Origin: Anaerolineales bacterium
GTDB lineage: Bacteria > Chloroflexota > Anaerolineae > Anaerolineales > DRMV01
Reading direction: 5' to 3'
DNA: 38,522 nucleotides
Assembly (NCBI GenBank): GCA_027053355.1
Contig: JALUDX010000108.1
Coordinates: forward strand, 1-38,522
This document shows, piece after piece, positions 29,054 through 38,211 of this stretch; the first letter of the stretch is position 1, and the number at the start of each line of letters is the position of its first letter. The position numbers were made by a program, and so were the translations under genes. The notes under the pieces were generated by a model. The model did no database searches. It was not told the DNA's origin and worked only from the letters and a program-made list of their open reading frames with translations.

Positions 29054-30307
29054 TTACCCGCTCAGTTTCAGCACCACCGGCTCGCCGTGCGGCTCCACCC
29101 GCGTCAGCCAGGCGCCGCTCAAATGCAACGTTTCGTTGGGCAGCAAGTGGCGAAACGGCTGCGTGAGCAGCAGGCGCTTCCCTTGCCGTACCTCGACGGT
29201 GGCGTTTTCTACGAACTGGGTCACCCGAAAGGTCACTTTGGCCGGCGTGTGCAAATCGGCGGGCGCCAGGCTGTTGGGTAACACCCAGAGCAGGGGCGGC
29301 TCGACGAGCACGGGCAAGCGGTGGGCCGGCCAGGGCTGGCCGTGCAAAAAAGCCAACACCTGCCGCGCGGCCTGGCGGCCTTCCAGCGCGCTGGTGGCTG
29401 CTGTCTCCGCCCCGCGCAGCAAATTCCCCGCGGCAAACACACCCGGCCGCGAAGTGCGGAATGCGACGTCTACCTGCGGCCCCCGCGTCCCTGGGTCCAT
29501 CACCAGATCGCCTTGCCGCGCCACTTCGTGCTCGGGGATCCAATCGCCGGTAAACACCACCGTATCGCAGGCAATCACTTCCCGCTGACCGGTGCTCAGG
29601 TGGGTGATTTCTACCCCTTCGACCCGCTTGCGCCCCAAAATGCGGCTGATGCGCACCTGGGTGCGGATGGGGGTGCGGTGGAGGGCGTCCACGAACAGCC
29701 ATTTGGCCGGTGCGTAGGGGAAGTACATCTGGTGGCGCGGCAGGTCGGTGAGGAAGGCGGCGACCTGCACGCCGGCCTTGTGCAGGGTGAGGAAGGCCGA
29801 AAGGCTGACGCCCTCCGCTCCCACGATGACCGCGCGGCGGCCTACGGGCAGGTGGCGTTCATCCACAAAGCGTTGCAGCGAGCCGGTGGTGAAAATGCCC
29901 CGCGGCCGATAGCCGGGCACCAGCCGGGCCGAGCGGGGGCGTTCGCGCACGCCGGTGGCCAGCAGCACCGCACGGCCGCGCAGCGCGCCTAAGCCCGCGG
30001 GACTGGTGTAAGTCAGGGTCAGATCGTCTTCCCAGCCGATGATGGTGGTTTGGGCGCGCAGATGCACCCCCGCGTCGCGCGCCTGTTGCACATAGCGGCG
30101 GGCGTAGGCTGGGCCGTTGTATAGCCGGTGGAAATCCCAAATGCCAAAGCCGGTGTGGTGACACAGGCGGGGCATACCGCCGGGTTCGGGTTCGCGGTCG
30201 ACCACGGTGACGTGGGCCACCCCCTGGCGCCGCAGTGCAATCGCGCTGCTCAGCCCCGCGGGGCCGGCGCCTACAATCAGAACGTCGGTTTCCTGGATGG
30301 TGGTCAT
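29054..30307 (-). CDS. FAD/NAD(P)-dependent oxidoreductase, partner of the GlpA-like dehydrogenase
   Basis: This 417-aa protein has an FAD-binding DVLIVGAGPAGLSSA near residue 8 and a second Rossmann motif RRAVIVGAEGVSLSAF near 155, where GAEGVS replaces the usual GxGxxG/A. The final FAD contact GVFAAGNLLRG is near 289, followed by an extra beta-rich C-terminal domain of about 85 residues. No redox CxxC is present, so it belongs with the two-component dehydrogenase partners (HcnB/opine oxidase A and TM1433-like). Its start overlaps the glpA stop by 4 bp. It probably passes electrons between the dehydrogenase and NAD(P). Confidence 0.8.
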   Translation of the reverse strand: MTTIQETDVLIVGAGPAGLSSAIALRRQGVAHVTVVDREPEPGGMPRLCHHTGFGIWDFHRLYNGPAYARRYVQQARDAGVHLRAQTTIIGWEDDLTLTYTSPAGLGALRGRAVLLATGVRERPRSARLVPGYRPRGIFTTGSLQRFVDERHLPVGRRAVIVGAEGVSLSAFLTLHKAGVQVAAFLTDLPRHQMYFPYAPAKWLFVDALHRTPIRTQVRISRILGRKRVEGVEITHLSTGQREVIACDTVVFTGDWIPEHEVARQGDLVMDPGTRGPQVDVAFRTSRPGVFAAGNLLRGAETAATSALEGRQAARQVLAFLHGQPWPAHRLPVLVEPPLLWVLPNSLAPADLHTPAKVTFRVTQFVENATVEVRQGKRLLLTQPFRHLLPNETLHLSGAWLTRVEPHGEPVVLKLSG

Positions 30308-31776
30308 GCCTGGTCCTCCTGGGAGGAATGCGTGGGCGGTGTCAAGGTCAACGGCTCAGGCGGGTCGTTGCCATCCAGAGCCAGCAAAAAGCGGGGATCT
30401 TGGCCGGTTTCACGCGCCAGGATGTCGACCACTGCAGCCCGGCAGTTGAAGCCCTGGCAACGCCCCTGGGTGGCGCGAGTGCGGCGGCGCAGTGCGTCCA
30501 AAGTGCGGGCAGGCACCGGGCTGTGGATAGCATCGAGGATTTCGCCCAAAGTCACCTTTTCGCAATGGCAGACGATGCGCCCATAATCGGAGTTTTGCGC
30601 GACGCGTTCCGGCTGGCGGTAAGGGCGGGGCCCGGCCTCGCCGATGTTGGGCATGCGGAAGGTCTGAAACGCGGTCTTGGCTTGCAGAGGCAACCCGGCT
30701 TCGGCCAGCAACTCGGCCACGTACTCGGCGATGCCCAAGGAAGCCGACACGCCGGTGGAACGGATGCCGCCCACGCAAACATAGCGTTGCGCGGCGTGCA
30801 GCCGAATTTGATAATCTTTGTGCTCGGTGGCCGCGCGCAGCCCCGCGTAGGTGGCGGTGACCTCTTCGTTCAGCAGGTCGGGCAGGATGGCGCGGCCCTT
30901 TTCCAGCAAGGTTTGCAGGCCGTGTTCGCTGGTGGCGGTGTTGGTTTTGTCGTCCAGGTCTTCGGCGGTGGGGCCCAGGAGCACGTTGCCGTACACCGTG
31001 GGGCTGATGAGCACCCCTTTGGTGATCGGCGTAGGCACGGGCAGGATGATGTGGTTGATCAGGCGGCGGGCGAATTTGTCGTAGACGATGAGTTCCCCGC
31101 GGCGGGGGGTGACGGTGAAGTCGTGGTGGCCGAGCATGTGGTCGATTTCATCGGAATACAACCCGGCCGCGTTGACCAGGTAGCGCGCGGCCACCTGCTG
31201 CCCGCGCGGGCCGCTGAGGACGTGCCGATCTTCCTCCTGCCGCACATCCCCCACGGGGAAGTTGAGTTTCAGGGTGACGCCGTTGAGTAGGGCTTCGGTG
31301 GCATAAGCGATGGGCAAGGTGAAGGGGCAGATCAGCGACTCACCCGGCACGAACAGGCCGCCAAAAGCCCCCTGGTTGAGCCGTGGCTCGAAGCGGTAGA
31401 CCTCTTCGGCTGAGATGATACGCACATCGATCACGCCGTTGGCGTGGGCACGCTCCAGCAGCGAGGGCAGGGTTTGGCGCTGCTCTTCGGTCCAGGCCAC
31501 CAATAGCCCGCCCAGCCGCTCGGTGGGAATGCCCGCCTGGGGCACAAACTCCTCCAGGAGGGCGTAAGAGCGCCGCAGCAGGCGGGCTTCGAGGGTGCCG
31601 GGCTTGGCGTCGAAACCGGTGTGCCAGATGGCGGTGTTGGCTTTGGTGGTGCCCATGCCGACATCGGCTTTGGCTTCCAGGAGCACCACTTCCAGTCGAT
31701 AGCGGGAGAGTTCGCGGGCGATGGCTGTGCCCACTGCCCCCGCGCCGATGATGGCGACGTCGTAGGTGGTTGGCAT
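30304..31776 (-). CDS. glpA: GlpA-type FAD-dependent glycerol-3-phosphate dehydrogenase with BFD-like [2Fe-2S] domain
   Basis: This 490-aa DAO-fold oxidoreductase binds FAD through YDVAIIGAGAVGTAIARE at residues 5-22. The catalytic domain has VNAAGLYSDEID and YVCVGGIRSTGVSASLG. The C-terminal domain carries CHC near 405 and CQGFNC near 445, the four-cysteine pattern of BFD-like [2Fe-2S] domains in GlpA and related proteins. It most likely oxidises glycerol 3-phosphate to dihydroxyacetone phosphate; another 2-hydroxy acid or amine substrate is possible. ATG 31776 is preceded by GAGGA; the ORF-track start is longer and lacks support. It lies 37 bp after gntR. Confidence 0.82.
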   Translation of the reverse strand: MPTTYDVAIIGAGAVGTAIARELSRYRLEVVLLEAKADVGMGTTKANTAIWHTGFDAKPGTLEARLLRRSYALLEEFVPQAGIPTERLGGLLVAWTEEQRQTLPSLLERAHANGVIDVRIISAEEVYRFEPRLNQGAFGGLFVPGESLICPFTLPIAYATEALLNGVTLKLNFPVGDVRQEEDRHVLSGPRGQQVAARYLVNAAGLYSDEIDHMLGHHDFTVTPRRGELIVYDKFARRLINHIILPVPTPITKGVLISPTVYGNVLLGPTAEDLDDKTNTATSEHGLQTLLEKGRAILPDLLNEEVTATYAGLRAATEHKDYQIRLHAAQRYVCVGGIRSTGVSASLGIAEYVAELLAEAGLPLQAKTAFQTFRMPNIGEAGPRPYRQPERVAQNSDYGRIVCHCEKVTLGEILDAIHSPVPARTLDALRRRTRATQGRCQGFNCRAAVVDILARETGQDPRFLLALDGNDPPEPLTLTPPTHSSQEDQA

Positions 31777-31813
31777 AGGTTGTCCTCGAAAGCCGGGGCT
31801 GAAGCCCGGCGGG

Positions 31814-32614
31814 TCAAGCAAGGCCGTTTTGCAGGCGGTCGAGGGCCTGCTGCCACTGAGGCGCGTTTTCCGCGTTCAGCGAAGCGGCCGTGCGGGCTGT
31901 GAAGATGATGCGGTCGCCGCGGTAAATATCGTGGGCAAATTCAAAGGGCACGCCCTGGTCAGTAAAGGCCACGCGGCGGATTTCTAAAGTGGGCAAGTCT
32001 ACCGGCACGCCCATGATCTGCGCCCATTCCGCGTCCAGCAGGGAAATTTCCAGTTCCTGCATGGCCTTGGCCGGGGTGACGCCGAAATATTTTTTGAGGA
32101 TGCCGTAAATGGACTCGGCCAGGCGGAAGTCGAGCAGGTCGGGGAAGAGGTGCACGGGGAAGTAAGAATCTTCCAGCGCTATGGGTTCGCCGTCTGCAGT
32201 ACGCAGGCGCACGATGTGGTAGGCTTCGTCCGCATCTTTCAGGTGGAGTGCGGCGCAGATTTTCGGCTCTAAGGCTTCGCAGGGCAGTTTTTCCGCCAGG
32301 ATCACCCGCGCACCGGGCTGAATACCCGCTTGTTCCAGTTGGCGATACAACCCCGAGGGGGAACTTAAGTCGAAGCGGATCTTCGGGCGGGCTACATAAG
32401 CCCGCGCGCCGCTGCGGCGGGTCAGCAGCCCGCGGCGCACCAAGATGTTGATGGCCGCGCGGGCGGTCATGCGCGAGATGCCAAACCGCTCGGCCAGTTC
32501 GCGCTCTGAAGCGATGCGCGACGCGGCAGGCAGGGTGCCTTCGGCAATTTCTTTGGCTAACTGCTCGGCCACCTGGCGGTAGCGCGGGGGGGAAACGGTG
32601 GTGTCTGTGGACAT
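31814..32614 (-). CDS. GntR family regulator with UTRA ligand domain (HutC/FarR type)
   Basis: This 266-aa regulator has an N-terminal winged helix at about 8-75 (SERELAERFGISRMTARAAI, then LVRRGLLTRRSG). The UTRA effector domain spans about 90-250 (HIVRLRTADGEPIALEDSYFP, then FEFAHDIYRGDRIIF). Such regulators usually repress uptake and breakdown genes until a phosphorylated or carboxylated ligand binds. It is the first gene before glpA and the FAD gene, and lies behind the pot/gpdQ genes on the same strand. A candidate operator lies at the potD promoter. Confidence 0.9.
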   Translation of the reverse strand: MSTDTTVSPPRYRQVAEQLAKEIAEGTLPAASRIASERELAERFGISRMTARAAINILVRRGLLTRRSGARAYVARPKIRFDLSSPSGLYRQLEQAGIQPGARVILAEKLPCEALEPKICAALHLKDADEAYHIVRLRTADGEPIALEDSYFPVHLFPDLLDFRLAESIYGILKKYFGVTPAKAMQELEISLLDAEWAQIMGVPVDLPTLEIRRVAFTDQGVPFEFAHDIYRGDRIIFTARTAASLNAENAPQWQQALDRLQNGLA

Positions 32615-32681: not shown

Positions 32682-32882
32682 GTAACCGTTTAGCCTTTGA
32701 AAACGGCCCGCGGGTGATTACGGATAGACGCGGGATTTTAGGGCGGCAAGGGAACGGGACGCTGCCCCGCCCCACAACAATGCCCTCGTTTTTCTGTGTT
32801 CTCAGTGCCTTTTCTGTGTATTCTGTGGTTTTCTGTTTGCGTCATCTGTAGTTTCTCTTCAAGGGTGAACAAGTTGCGTTAC
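32682..32882. mobile_element. MITE-like element E6 (201 bp) inserted at the gpdQ stop codon
   Basis: The left end is GTAACCGTTTAGCCT. The right end is diverged (AGGGTGAACA...GTTAC, with about 6 extra bases). The flanks GTTTCTGG (32674-32681) and GTTTCGGG (32883-32890) match 7 of 8. The GGAT and CTGTG arms are as in the other copies. The terminal GTTAC gives the TAA stop of gpdQ on the minus strand. It fills most of the gap between gpdQ and gntR. Confidence 0.7.
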
Positions 32883-33685
32883 GTTTCGGGCGCAAAAGGG
32901 TGCAGCGGCTCGTCGGCCAGCACCCGCACCGTGTGGGTGACCAGCGCGGGTTTTTCGGGCACCGCGAGGTGCAGGTGATAGGCCGGTTCGTCCAGAATGT
33001 AGCGAGAAAGCGAAAGCGTCAAGTCGAGGTAGAGGCGCATGCCGGTGCTGGGGGCGGTGCTGATGGTGCGGCTTTGCCACTCAGCAAAGGAGGAAAGGTG
33101 AATGTGCCCGGCCAGAATGCGGAAAACCTGGGGGTGCCCGGAAAGCACCTCGGCCAGCAAGTCGGCACCTTCGAAGCCGTCGACGTCGGTTTCGATCACG
33201 CCTAGCCGCGCTGGGGGATGATGCATGAAGAGCACGGTAGGCGTGTGGGGGGCTTCCCGCAGGCGAGCATCTAACCAGGCCGCGCGGCGGGGGTCGAAGG
33301 CGCCGCCGGGGCCTTCCGCGGCCACGGTATCCAGCCCCAAAAGGCGCAAACCGGGCAAGGTGATGTCGTGTTGGATGAAGCCGTGGGCGTCGCGTGGGCA
33401 AATTTGGGGGCCGAACGCCGCGGCTAAAGTGTTGCGCCGGTCGTGGTTACCCGGCACAACGGCCAGAGGCGCGTCCAGGCGGCTGAGAATTTCAGCCGCC
33501 CGCTGGGCTTCCTCGACGCGGCCGTCGCTGGTGACATCGCCGGTATGCAGCACCCACGCGGGCTGAGGCTGCAACCGGTTGATGTGTTCCACGCAGCGGG
33601 CTAAATTTTCTGCCATCGCCGCGACGCCGAAGGTCTTTTGCCCTGGCCCGGCTAAGTGGGTGTCGCTGAGTTGGACGATGAGCAT
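32879..33685 (-). CDS. gpdQ: GpdQ/CpdA-family class III phosphodiesterase
   Basis: This 268-aa calcineurin-like metallophosphoesterase has the metal ligands D8 and H10 (SDTH), D50 (GDVTSDG), N80 (GNHD), H155/H156 (FMHHPP), H194 and H196 (GHIH). This order and spacing nearly coincide with those known for glycerophosphodiesterase GpdQ. GpdQ cleaves glycerophosphodiesters to glycerol 3-phosphate and an alcohol; the related CpdA cleaves cyclic AMP. The adjoining ABC importer and GlpA-type dehydrogenase favour the first. The stop codon lies within the end of mobile element E6. The gene follows potC after 24 bp. Confidence 0.8.
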   Translation of the reverse strand: MLIVQLSDTHLAGPGQKTFGVAAMAENLARCVEHINRLQPQPAWVLHTGDVTSDGRVEEAQRAAEILSRLDAPLAVVPGNHDRRNTLAAAFGPQICPRDAHGFIQHDITLPGLRLLGLDTVAAEGPGGAFDPRRAAWLDARLREAPHTPTVLFMHHPPARLGVIETDVDGFEGADLLAEVLSGHPQVFRILAGHIHLSSFAEWQSRTISTAPSTGMRLYLDLTLSLSRYILDEPAYHLHLAVPEKPALVTHTVRVLADEPLHPFAPET

Positions 33686-33709: not shown

Positions 33710-34567
33710 TCAGGCCGCGTCGTCCTTTTGAAAGGCAAAGGCCAGAAAGCCCAACACGCCGGTAACCATCATCAACAACACGCTGACCGCGTTGATTTCG
33801 GGGGTGATGCCAAAGCGCAGGCGAGAATAGAGCAAAATGGGCATGGTGGGGTCAGAGCCGCTGAGGAAGTAGGTGGTGTTGAAGTTTTCGAAGGAAAACA
33901 GGAAGGCAATGATGGCAGCCCCAATCATGGCTGGCGCCAGAAAGCGCAGCGTGATCAGCCACACGGCTTCCAGGCGGCTGGAGCCCAAGTCCATAGCGGC
34001 TTCTTCCAGCGCGGGGTCGAAGCGCTTGAGCCGCGCCACGATCACCAGCGTGGTCGTGGTAGCGACGAAACTCACCTGCCCCGCCACCACCAGCCAGAAG
34101 CCGGGGCGCAAAAACGTGCCCGCCCCTGCTCCAAATATTTTATCCAATCCGTTGGCAATGCCATAGGAAAAGGCCAAAATCGACGTCCCCAACACCACCC
34201 CCGGCACGACCAGCGGGCCTAACATCAGTAGATACAAGAAGTTCTGCCCGATGAATTTGTAACGTACGAACAAGAAGGCGTTGTTCACGCCCAAGGCCAC
34301 CGAAATCAAGGTCACCAAAACGGCCACTTTGAGGCTGACGATGACCGCCGAAATCATGCGCGCGTCGTCGAAAAAGCCTACCCGCCCGGGCGTGCTGGCT
34401 TTGAACCAATCCAACGTGAAGCCCTGCCAGGGGAAAGAGGCGCTGGGGTTGTTGTTGAAGGCCAAAATGGTGACGATGACCAGCGGGCCCAAGGTGAAAA
34501 TCAAAACCAAGATGGCGTAGGCGTAAAACAACGCTTTGCTCAGGGAAAGCCCTTTTTGTCGAAACAT
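33710..34567 (-). CDS. potC: Spermidine/putrescine-type ABC permease, PotC-like
   Basis: This 285-aa inner membrane permease has six TM helices. The coupling EAA-like loop is EEAAMDLGSSRLEAVWLITL near residue 175. It pairs with the PotB-like permease. ATG 34567 overlaps the upstream stop by one base (TGATG), which implies coupled translation; the longer frame at 34615 is not needed. The family moves polyamines, but also aminoethylphosphonate and other small ligands. Confidence 0.85.
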   Translation of the reverse strand: MFRQKGLSLSKALFYAYAILVLIFTLGPLVIVTILAFNNNPSASFPWQGFTLDWFKASTPGRVGFFDDARMISAVIVSLKVAVLVTLISVALGVNNAFLFVRYKFIGQNFLYLLMLGPLVVPGVVLGTSILAFSYGIANGLDKIFGAGAGTFLRPGFWLVVAGQVSFVATTTTLVIVARLKRFDPALEEAAMDLGSSRLEAVWLITLRFLAPAMIGAAIIAFLFSFENFNTTYFLSGSDPTMPILLYSRLRFGITPEINAVSVLLMMVTGVLGFLAFAFQKDDAA

Positions 34568-35415
34568 CACATGGCCTCCGAGAGATCTTGCTTGGTGATC
34601 TTCAGCACAATCCACACGAACAGCACCGAGAAGGTAAGCAAAATCACGCTGAAGGCAGAGCCTTTGTTCTGGTTGAAGCGGATGATGAACTGGTTGTAGA
34701 TGATTTCGGTGAACCAGAGGCTGTTTTTGCCGCCCAGCAGGGTCACGGTCACGTAATTGCCCAAGTTGAGCATGAACACCATGATGCTGCCCACCATCAT
34801 GCCCGGCGCGGCGTGAGGAATGATGATTTCCCGCAGGGTGGACCAGAAGTTGCCGCCCAGGTCGTAAGCAGCCTCGATCAGGCTGTCGTCTAACGTGTCC
34901 AGCGAGTTGATGATGGGGATGGTCATAAAGAGCAGCGAAGTGTAAACCAGCCCTACTGCGATGGTGCTGTCATGGTACAGAAACTCAATGTTGTGGTGGG
35001 TGAGGCCAATGGCCCGGAGCAGGTAACTCAGCACACCGGTTTCCCGGAAAAACACCATCCACGTAAAGGCCTGGATGAGTTCCGAGACCCAGTAGGGCAG
35101 GATGATGGCCAGCAGCAGCATGGCCTTGAGGTGCTTGCCGGCCACTTTGGTGATGATGAACGCCACAGGGAAGGAAATGACCAAGGTGAGCAAAGTGACC
35201 AGGGTCGAAAACACAGCGGTGCGGACGAAGATTTTGCGATAGAGGGGGCTGTGGAAGAAGTAGAGGTAGTTGGCTAAGGTGAATTCGCCGCCACGCCGGC
35301 TGACAAAAGAGAGATAAAAGAGTTTGAGATGGGGCAGCACAAAGAGTAGGCCGATCCAGAGCAACATAAAGGTCAGCAGCACCCACTGCCCCCGGTTTCT
35401 GGCTAAGGTTTTCAT
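34567..35415 (-). CDS. potB: Spermidine/putrescine-type ABC permease, PotB-like
   Basis: This 282-aa permease has six TM helices and the coupling motif LIEAAYDLGGNFWSTLREII near residue 180. The N-terminal LLFVLPHLKLFYLSF and the extracytoplasmic loop are typical of PotB. Its start overlaps the potA stop as ATGA (35412-35415). It forms the membrane channel with the PotC-like subunit. Confidence 0.87.
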   Translation of the reverse strand: MKTLARNRGQWVLLTFMLLWIGLLFVLPHLKLFYLSFVSRRGGEFTLANYLYFFHSPLYRKIFVRTAVFSTLVTLLTLVISFPVAFIITKVAGKHLKAMLLLAIILPYWVSELIQAFTWMVFFRETGVLSYLLRAIGLTHHNIEFLYHDSTIAVGLVYTSLLFMTIPIINSLDTLDDSLIEAAYDLGGNFWSTLREIIIPHAAPGMMVGSIMVFMLNLGNYVTVTLLGGKNSLWFTEIIYNQFIIRFNQNKGSAFSVILLTFSVLFVWIVLKITKQDLSEAM

Positions 35416-36539
35416 GGCAATCCCTCCGCTTCGGTGCGCGGCTGAGCCACCGGGTGGAACGCGTTGGCGGCATCCCAGCGCCAGGAGAGGGTGACCACTT
35501 CGCCCACTTTGACGTCGGGCGCGTTTTCGGTGTGCTGCACTTTGACGTTCAGGCTCAGCGGGCGGTCGCTTTCCAGAAGGTCTACGATGACCAACGAATG
35601 CGAGCCGTCGAAGTTGATTTCGCTTACTTTGCCCACGATGCCATCGTCGTGCCGACCGGGGCGCAGGGTGATCATCTCAGGGCGGATGAACAGGTCGACC
35701 CGGTCGCCGACGGCCAGGTTTTCTCCAGCGCGCCCGGCCATACGGATGCCGCCGATTTCCACGTCCACGCCGCCGCCCTGTCGGAAGGCCACCACTTTGC
35801 CGTTGGTGAGTTTGTTGTTTTCGCCCACGAACGAGGCCACGAAATGGGTTGCCGGTTGGCGGTAAAGTTCTTCGGGCGGGGCAATCTGCTCGATTCTGCC
35901 GTGGTTGATCACCGCCACCGTGTCAGACATGGCCAGCGCGATGGTCTGGTCGTGGGTGATGTAGACAAAGGTAGTGCCTGTGCGGGCTTGCAGGTGCTTG
36001 AGTTCCAGTTTCATGCTCTGGCGGAGTTTCAGGTCCAGGGAACCCAGCGGTTCGTCTAACAAAAGCACGGTTGGCTCCAGCACCAGGCTGCGCGCCAGCG
36101 CGACGCGCTGCTGTTGGCCGCCGGAAAGTTGGTGGATTTTGCGCTTTTCCAACCCTTCCAGACCCACCCGGGCTAACGCGTCTTTGGCACGGCGTTCCAT
36201 TTCGGCTTTGCTTATGCCGCCGCGGCGGCGCAAGCCAAAAGTCACGTTGTCCAAAACATTCATCATCGGGAACAAAGCCAGCCGCTGGAAAACCATGTTG
36301 CACGGCCGTTTGTTGGGGGGGACGTCGTTGACCCGCTGGCCGCCGATGTAGATGTCGCCGCTGGTGGGTTTTTCGAAACCGGCGATCATCCGCAGGAGGG
36401 TGGTCTTACCACTGCCTGAAGGGCCCAGAATCGAGAAAAAACTCCCCTTGGGAATTTCGAAACTGACGTCGTTGACGGCTATCAAGTCGCCAAACTTTTT
36501 CGTCACATGGACAAGAGCAACATCAATCTCTTGGGACAT
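35412..36539 (-). CDS. potA: Spermidine/putrescine-type ABC ATPase, PotA-like
   Basis: This 375-aa ATPase has Walker A GPSGSGKTT at residues 39-47, the signature LSGGQQQRVALARSL, Walker B VLLLDEPLGSLDLKLR and the H-loop in YITHDQTIAL. The C-terminal TOBE domain begins near residue 280 (IRPEMITLRPG). Length and order match PotA. It is the second gene of the operon, behind potD and a 12-bp intercistronic hairpin. Confidence 0.92.
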   Translation of the reverse strand: MSQEIDVALVHVTKKFGDLIAVNDVSFEIPKGSFFSILGPSGSGKTTLLRMIAGFEKPTSGDIYIGGQRVNDVPPNKRPCNMVFQRLALFPMMNVLDNVTFGLRRRGGISKAEMERRAKDALARVGLEGLEKRKIHQLSGGQQQRVALARSLVLEPTVLLLDEPLGSLDLKLRQSMKLELKHLQARTGTTFVYITHDQTIALAMSDTVAVINHGRIEQIAPPEELYRQPATHFVASFVGENNKLTNGKVVAFRQGGGVDVEIGGIRMAGRAGENLAVGDRVDLFIRPEMITLRPGRHDDGIVGKVSEINFDGSHSLVIVDLLESDRPLSLNVKVQHTENAPDVKVGEVVTLSWRWDAANAFHPVAQPRTEAEGLP

Positions 36540-36619: not shown

Positions 36620-37792
36620 CTATTTGGATTGAGCGGCTTTCACTTGCTCGAGCACATCGGCCTGAATGTCTTGCGCGTAAGGCGGCAGAGGGAAGTACCA
36701 TTTGATGGTCTTCATCTTTTCGGGCGGCAGGGTTTCAGCAACGATTTTCGCCATTTCAGGCGAAGCCAGTTCCACCGCGCCTTGAGAGGCGGTCTGGTAA
36801 CCGGTTTTGTTGATGATGACCGCGGCGTTTTCCGGTTTCATCACAAAGTTGATCCACTTGTAGGCGGCATCGACGTTTTCTGCCCCGGCAGAGATGGCGA
36901 AAGTGTCAAACCAGCCCACTGCGCCTTCTTTGGGCACCACGTACTTGAACTTGCCAGGGTTCTCTTTCATCAGTGTCCAGGCGATCGCGTCCCAACTGGT
37001 AGCAACCCAGACCTCTTCGTTCTTCAGCAGGTCTTCCAACTGCTGGCGGGAATCCCAGTAAGTGCGGACGATGGGTTTGCACTCGATGAGTTTGTCGCGC
37101 ACCGCGTTCATCACCTTGCGGTATTCATCCTCGCTTTTCACGGCTTTGGCAGGGTCGTAACCCAGTGCGTAGGCAAACATGTAGAGAGTGTCGTACTTGG
37201 CGCGATAACTCACCCGGCCTTTGTATTTGGGGTCACACAGGTCGAGGTAACTCTTCCCGGCATCGGGAGCCTTCTCGGTGTTGATGACCATGGCAGTGGT
37301 GCCCCACACAAAAGGCAGGGCGTAAGGCTTGCCTTGGTATTCCGAGTTTTTGAGGATGGATTCCCAGTAAGCCGGGATGAAAAGGTCTTTGTCGACCTTT
37401 GAAAGGTCGAGGGGCTGATAAATGCCAAATTGCTCCTGTGCAGTAGCCACGTAGTTCAAAGTGGGCGAGACCAGGTCAAAACCCACGCCCTTGGTGGCGG
37501 CCATCTTGGCAATAAGTTCGTTGTTGTCGCCGATGTAGGTGATTTCGACCTTGATGCCGGTTTCTTTGGTGAATTTGTTGACCAGTTCTTCGGGTGCGTA
37601 GCCTTCCCAGGTCAGGATACGCAAAACGCCACCGGAAGCGGCCGGAGGGGCCTTGGTGGCGGCAGGGGGGGCAGACGTGGCGGCGGGCTGCTGGGTAGGC
37701 GCCTGGGTGGGCTTCGCCGAGCCGCCACACGCGGCCAGCGCTGTGCTTAACGCAAGAACCAAGATGAGTATGATCCACAGATGGCGTTTCAT
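36620..37792 (-). CDS. potD: Spermidine/putrescine-type ABC transporter, substrate-binding lipoprotein (PotD-like)
   Basis: This 390-aa lipoprotein has a signal peptide that ends in LAAC (lipidated cysteine at residue 21). A Thr/Pro/Ala/Gln-rich linker to about residue 52 is of the kind seen in lipoproteins of Chloroflexota. The PotD-like fold then starts LRILTWEGYAPEELVNKF and continues VGFDLVSPTLNYVA. The ligand is not certain: PotD relatives bind polyamines, but the neighbouring genes point to a phosphorylated compound. AAGGAG precedes ATG 37792. It is the first gene of the cluster, transcribed from the promoter at 37924-37952. Confidence 0.88.
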   Translation of the reverse strand: MKRHLWIILILVLALSTALAACGGSAKPTQAPTQQPAATSAPPAATKAPPAASGGVLRILTWEGYAPEELVNKFTKETGIKVEITYIGDNNELIAKMAATKGVGFDLVSPTLNYVATAQEQFGIYQPLDLSKVDKDLFIPAYWESILKNSEYQGKPYALPFVWGTTAMVINTEKAPDAGKSYLDLCDPKYKGRVSYRAKYDTLYMFAYALGYDPAKAVKSEDEYRKVMNAVRDKLIECKPIVRTYWDSRQQLEDLLKNEEVWVATSWDAIAWTLMKENPGKFKYVVPKEGAVGWFDTFAISAGAENVDAAYKWINFVMKPENAAVIINKTGYQTASQGAVELASPEMAKIVAETLPPEKMKTIKWYFPLPPYAQDIQADVLEQVKAAQSK

Positions 37793-37923
37793 AAGTTTTT
37801 CTCCTTGGGATGGGATAGAACGAACGGGGAAGGGGGGTCTGAGGGAATATCTGATTTGCGGACGGCCTCCTCCTTTCTGACAGGGGTCAGGCGCTGCGCT
37901 TGTGGGTTGAGCAGCGTATTTTG

Positions 37924-37952
37924 ATTATACCATGAAGCAATGGTATAGACAA
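37924..37952 (-). promoter_or_regulatory. potD promoter with palindromic operator-like site
   Basis: On the minus strand TTGTCT (37952-37947), a 17-bp spacer and TATAAT (37929-37924) preceded by TGG form a strong promoter. The inverted repeat TATACCAT/ATGGTATA (37926-37933 and 37940-37947, 6-bp gap) overlaps the spacer and -10. The adjacent TGGTATAGAC (37941-37950) resembles the TGGTATAGACCA type of site known for HutC-subfamily GntR regulators, and such a regulator is encoded in this cluster. Confidence 0.65.
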
Positions 37953-37998
37953 AACTGAAAGCGCCGAGGTGGCTCAAACTACTCCAGCGGCACAGTGG

Positions 37999-38150
37999 AG
38001 GCAAAGGCGCAGAGAAGCGTAAAGATACGCAAAGAGGTCTATGCCAAGTGCGCTAAGGATACAAAGGAGGCCAAGAAAAACTTTCTGTGTCTTCTGTGTC
38101 TTCTGTGTCTTCTGTGTTTTCTCTTTTGGTCTGGGTTAATCTGTAACTGC
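37999..38150. repeat. Degenerate intergenic repeat with TTCTGTGTC nonamer array
   Basis: A purine-rich left part (GCGCAGAGAAGCG, ATACGCAAAGAGG) is followed by four TTCTGTGTC-type nonamers at 38083-38118. The units match the right arm of the E elements, but no GTAAC ends are found, so this may be a relic or a separate slippage array. The rest of 37793-38211 contains only the potD leader, promoter and operator. Confidence 0.65.
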
Positions 38151-38211
38151 CTACGGCGGTGTAGGCGCTTTGGCTTGCCCTTTCCCCAAAAATTGCCATG
38201 CAAGGAATCCT

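Follow-up and report, generated by a model that had tools for sequence, protein, structure and literature searches.

The HutC subfamily of GntR regulators has the consensus site GTMTAKAC, and paired sites at a roughly constant distance have been described; the large survey of GntR motifs included no HutC regulator from Chloroflexi (PMC4494728). In NagR (YvoA) of Bacillus subtilis, Arg38 and Arg48 contact two guanines of the half-site, and the natural NagR dre sites are imperfect 12-mers that pair a GG half-site with a TG one, a T replacing the outer G (PMC4333415). PhnF of Mycobacterium smegmatis is a HutC-subfamily repressor of an ABC uptake operon and has two promoter-region sites (PMC7866108).

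We analyzed a 38,522-nucleotide stretch of DNA (hereafter the window), which spans a whole contig in the 2.45-Mb draft genome of an Anaerolineales bacterium; the close relatives are Anaerolineae metagenome-assembled genomes. An operon-like cluster runs on the minus strand from 37792 to 29054. Its first gene encodes a PotD/PotF-type solute-binding lipoprotein (36620..37792), followed by genes encoding a PotA-type ATPase (35412..36539), PotB-type (34567..35415) and PotC-type (33710..34615) permeases, a calcineurin-like phosphodiesterase (32879..33685), a GntR/UTRA (HutC-subfamily) regulator presumed to be a repressor (31814..32614), a glycerol-3-phosphate-oxidase-like FAD enzyme with a BFD [2Fe-2S] domain (30304..31821) and, last, an NAD(P)/FAD-dependent oxidoreductase (29054..30307). 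As a 264-bp gap bearing a dispersed repeat separates gntR from the upstream gene, co-transcription of gntR in the window is not certain. In several relatives, gntR lies ~20-100 bp after the phosphodiesterase gene. Among the Anaerolineae loci examined, the phosphodiesterase gene is co-conserved with the transporter wherever contigs reach, and the FAD enzyme gene comes after gntR in most.

The dispersed repeat is intergenic, rich in TTCTGTGT/TCTGCG and found at least 40 times genome-wide (80-94% identity). Five copies are in the window, at 32780-32880, 15996, 18368, 20020 and 27462, and the one between the phosphodiesterase gene and gntR enlarges the gap. At 38080-38125, upstream of the promoter, TGTGTCTTC is repeated in a short tandem run whose composition is like that of this repeat.

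Upstream of the first gene are two HutC-type 12-mers on the minus strand, O1 (TTGTCTATACCA, 37941..37952) and, 20 bp downstream, the weaker O2 (TGGTATAATCAA, 37921..37932), which are separated by an 8-nt spacer (37933..37940). The best solved relative of the window's GntR is NagR (2wv0/4u0v, E ~1e-37). As in the NagR system, TTGTCTATACCA has the TTG/CCA asymmetry and both Arg38 and Arg48 are conserved, whereas the gene context is another one, two sites stand at a fixed 20 bp and the wing glycine is not conserved outside the window's genus. The arrangement resembles that of PhnF in that an ABC uptake operon would be controlled through two sites in the promoter region, but the targets of PhnF are phosphate uptake genes lying divergent from phnF. 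The sequence TGGTATAGACCA is a PhnF-type site; no paper with the exact string was found in the literature searched, and the window's GntR scored 113.8 against the PhnF equivalog TIGR02325, below the cut-off of 156.8. With HutC operators in general, O1 shares the consensus and the 4-nt GT-AC distance, although the extra boxes of the survey are closer to the site centre (7-12 nt) than O2 is (PMC4494728). The locus would provide Chloroflexota, which had no HutC member in that survey (PMC4494728), with a concrete pair of HutC-subfamily regulator and site.

Promoter and tandem sites upstream of the operon

The promoter TTGTCT-17-TATAAT on the minus strand points toward the transporter operon and matches 10/12 hexamer bases; no second promoter-like match was found in 37780-38210, where 0.2 is expected by chance. 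The -35 hexamer TTGTCT (37947..37952) is contained in O1, and the extended -10, TGGTATAAT (37924..37932), has TATAAT at 37929-37924 with TG ahead of the hexamer. The initial annotation had placed a perfect inverted repeat between and over these two elements, and this was borne out: TATACCATGAAGCAATGGTATA matches 37926-37947 with 0 mismatches and is the sole such site in the window even when 3 mismatches are allowed. The palindrome, TATACCAT-GAAGCA-ATGGTATA (37926..37947, without assigned strand, the arms being separated by N6), spans the last base of the -35, the entire spacer and four bases of the -10.

In the window, perfect inverted repeats of 8 bp with loops of 3-20 nt are frequent (61, overlapping counts included, versus 15.9 in shuffles), and hence palindrome statistics were rejected as weak evidence: an 8-bp inverted repeat by itself is statistically unremarkable and proves nothing. 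The 408 bp ahead of the first gene contain no perfect 8-bp inverted repeat other than the palindrome. Support for the site comes from its position and conservation rather than from its symmetry.

The adjoining 12-mer had been credited with a match of 10 bases in 12, which we corrected, as TGGTATAGACAA (37941-37952) agrees with TGGTATAGACCA at 11/12. The O1 core, GTCTATAC, fits GTMTAKAC at 8/8 positions with GT and AC 4 nt apart. For the O2 core, GTATAATC, the inner half alone fits; in the window this half (TGGTATA) is intact and the outer half is compromised by the -10, with the C at position 10 kept. The 20-bp spacing puts O1 and O2 on about the same helix face. The conserved unit is best read as a tandem pair of HutC-type sites spaced by 20 bp instead of one palindrome, and the palindrome noted earlier is the two facing inner half-sites of O1 and O2.

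Relatives were found via the solute-binding protein, giving fifteen distinct orthologous sites in total. Read along the operon, these sites consist of TKGWMTATACCA, eight drifting bases and then TGG (n=15, with one O1 variant, TGGTATAGTCCA), such that the O2 box pattern TGGTATAATC lies exactly 20 bp on from the TKGWMTATACCA of O1 and the spacer is constant in length and variable in sequence. O1 positions T1, G3, T6, A7, C10, C11 and A12 and the TGG of O2 are invariant in 15/15 and the C at O2 position 10 is found in 12/15, counts that come from related and so not independent sequences. Within the genus, the site stands ahead of the same gene in all four genomes whose GntR orthologue is close (80-84% identity), and a fifth, G002, gave neither a close GntR orthologue nor a site match. 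The palindrome had been expected to recur upstream of orthologous genes. The site is indeed kept there, but perfect symmetry, present in the window and G003, is lost in G004 (TAGTCCAT) and at locus L122, both of which retain the tandem layout.

When 396 genomes of the class were scanned with the tandem pattern, matches were obtained in 10 genomes versus 0 for the reversed control, and each match corresponded in sequence to a site upstream of the solute-binding gene or to a near-identical relative of such a site. Because the layout is conserved in the fifteen orthologous sites while the 8-nt spacer drifts, functional constraint is well supported and we take the site to be real.

Operator and promoter constraint at O2

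O2 coincides with a -10 (TATAAT, TACAAT or TATACT) in 13/15 sites, and among the extended -10s of the genome TGGTATAAT is the most frequent, so that part of the O2 conservation would have another cause, promoter constraint. In our first model the right arm was extended -10 only (TRTGGTATAAT): O1 alone would be the operator, and the palindrome a HutC site beside a good -10. The genome, in which extended -10 promoters are in wide use, offers support for this, as TGNTATAAT is found 105 times and its reversed control 7 times, the third base is most often G (21/48), and the unrelated promoter of a YebC-like gene (L092) has the same ATGGTATAATCAAAATA and no HutC site. The model was weakened by two loci in which the promoter has moved, a natural experiment that splits operator constraint from -10 constraint. 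At L123, the promoter TTGACA-17-TACACT lies upstream with its -10 ending ~11 nt short of O1, and TGGTATATACCA-N8-TGGAATATACCA forms the tandem pair; at L122, the promoter TTGACA-17-TATACT is directly upstream of the pair TGGTCTATACCA-N8-TGGCTCTATCCA. In both, O2 is free of the -10 and has full GG...CC ends at the unchanged 20-bp spacing, which argues that O2 is more than a -10. Moreover, all 13 sites that overlap a promoter have G as the third base and 10 of them have C after the hexamer (p ~1.5e-5 and ~3e-5, respectively, versus the genome's own promoters; p = 0.014 for the third-base G when related genomes were collapsed). We retain O1 alone as a rival reading that is unlikely, if not negligibly so.

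Much less probable is that the 22-bp palindrome TATACCAT-N6-ATGGTATA is one site for a single dimer, perhaps of another regulator. The perfect symmetry in two genomes would suit such a site and, for comparison, NanR/NagQ-type regulators read TGGTATA-like repeats. However, the O1 12-mer keeps GG...CC where the symmetry is broken, presence of the site tracks gntR, and the sites of NanR and NagQ are direct repeats rather than inverted arms that face outward (PMC4494728; PMC8012715). We give almost no credence to the inverted repeat being a chance feature or an RNA hairpin: common as such repeats are in the window, these arms are conserved across the class while the spacer drifts, and the repeat is upstream of the expected transcription start and so would be absent from the RNA.

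Genome G340 has a further pair, TGGTATAGTCCA-N8-TTATATAGTCCA (L084 2631-2662, minus strand), with the same 20-bp spacing, upstream of a second binding-protein/PotA-like ATPase gene pair adjoining gntR; it appears that the regulon can include a second transporter. Other candidate sites were rejected. The YebC-like promoter was discarded as a second target, since it has the -10 stretch in common but lacks O1, and the second in-window site, AGGTCTATGCCA (38035-38046), has 2 mismatches, is within chance and lies in repeat-like intergenic DNA. The other genome matches to TGGTATAGACCA were not accepted as a regulon, the examined ones being in long open frames or transposase-adjacent copies. Five copies of TTTGTAAAGGCGGGTTGGTATTGACCAATAATCCTTCAACAA (L007, L009, L011, L012 and L014) stand beside a ~370-aa transposase-like ORF and are apparently an insertion-sequence end mimicking a HutC site.

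Regulator, proposed switch and substrate

The GntR protein has an N-terminal winged helix (PF00392, 58.9 bits) and a C-terminal UTRA domain (PF07702, 120.4 bits), both above cut-off, and is the one UTRA-domain protein of a genome rated 100% complete. The residues equivalent to NagR Arg38 and Arg48 are invariant in 16/16, as is the stretch SRMT.RAA. At the position of the wing glycine (NagR Gly69), the window and its genus have Gly; of the other orthologues, most have Arg and one has His. With orthologues defined at E <= 1e-60, gntR is present in 9/396 genomes; site and gntR occur together in 7, gntR only in 2, the site only in 3 and neither in 384 (Fisher p ~1.5e-11, relatedness ignored). In all 5 exceptions, contigs break between site and gene. 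Locus L124 has the transporter and phosphodiesterase genes, with no gntR in the 3 kb beyond and no site. Given the sole UTRA protein, the two retained arginines, the co-occurrence of gene and site and the missing site at L124, the single orthologous cluster in which no gntR was seen, the regulator of the site is very probably the cluster's own GntR, an assignment that is strong for a sequence-only study. The original proposal of an operator for this protein is upheld by conservation, co-occurrence and the sole UTRA protein, but has to be amended in that the conserved unit is the tandem pair and much of the right arm is also an extended -10 of the kind normal for this genome.

Distant UTRA regulators in relatives (L023, L024, L025, L066 and L067), 36-40% identical to that of the window where scored, have TGGTCTATACCA near their own gene in the layout TATAGTGG ... 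TGGTCTATACCA-CTATAG, which suggests a related but distinct operator.

We consider a negative-control switch likely, in which GntR dimers on O1 and O2 repress the operon and a ligand lifts repression. One GntR/UTRA dimer would occupy O1, which overlaps the -35 and spacer, and a second would occupy the weaker O2, which overlaps the extended -10, the dimers probably helping each other. With the -35 under O1 and the -10 under O2, bound protein should keep RNA polymerase away from the operon promoter, which would serve gntR too. Where the promoter has moved (L122 and L123), the pair closely follows the -10, which would likewise be a repressing position. Substrate import would cause the ligand to appear, bind the UTRA domain and lift repression, and if the genes are co-transcribed the repressor would limit its own level. 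Binding, cooperativity, repression over activation and inducer identity are what we infer here. The switch is of a known type, conventional on/off; new is this example with its tandem layout.

The ligand would most plausibly be phosphorylated, for example glycerol-3-phosphate or a glycerophosphodiester. The equivalents of the phosphate-binding NagR residues Arg133/135, Ser165 and Tyr167 are conserved in the GntR protein, but they do not identify the ligand, as the subfamily largely shares the Arg133/135-type arginines (PMC4918961).

The first gene had been called potD, a label implying polyamines. The solute-binding protein scored 120.1 against the PotD equivalog NF007048, far below the cut-off of 582. 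In PotD, Asp168 and Glu171 are the acidic amine-binding residues; they align with Lys199 and Thr202, both of which are invariant in ten orthologues. The FAD enzyme has type 2 glycerol-3-phosphate oxidase (NF033460) as its best family match, yet at 256.7 it is below the cut-off of 460, and its closest structure is L-alpha-glycerophosphate oxidase 4x9m. The nearest solved structures of the phosphodiesterase are 2zo9/3d03/2dxl, which we take to be the glycerophosphodiesterase GpdQ. The PotD and PotA labels are generic and the polyamine reading is doubtful, since other residues stand in place of the acidic ones and the co-conserved enzymes would suit glycerophosphodiesters. From the altered binding pocket, the GpdQ-like phosphodiesterase and the glycerol-3-phosphate-oxidase-like BFD enzyme, the simplest reading, which we put forward tentatively, is a glycerophosphodiester importer with glycerol-3-phosphate as inducer. 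It is conceivable to a similar degree that glycerophosphodiester uptake and breakdown built on a PotD-type, not UgpB-type, importer, a HutC-subfamily repressor and a tandem operator is spread through Anaerolineae. A likely wrong label would be corrected, in that these 'potABCD' genes may import glycerophosphodiesters.

In two spirochaete records (L125 and L170), the solute-binding gene is present at 60-75% identity and the operator is absent; the GntR upstream in L125 is merely distant (28%), hinting at horizontal transfer with a different regulator.
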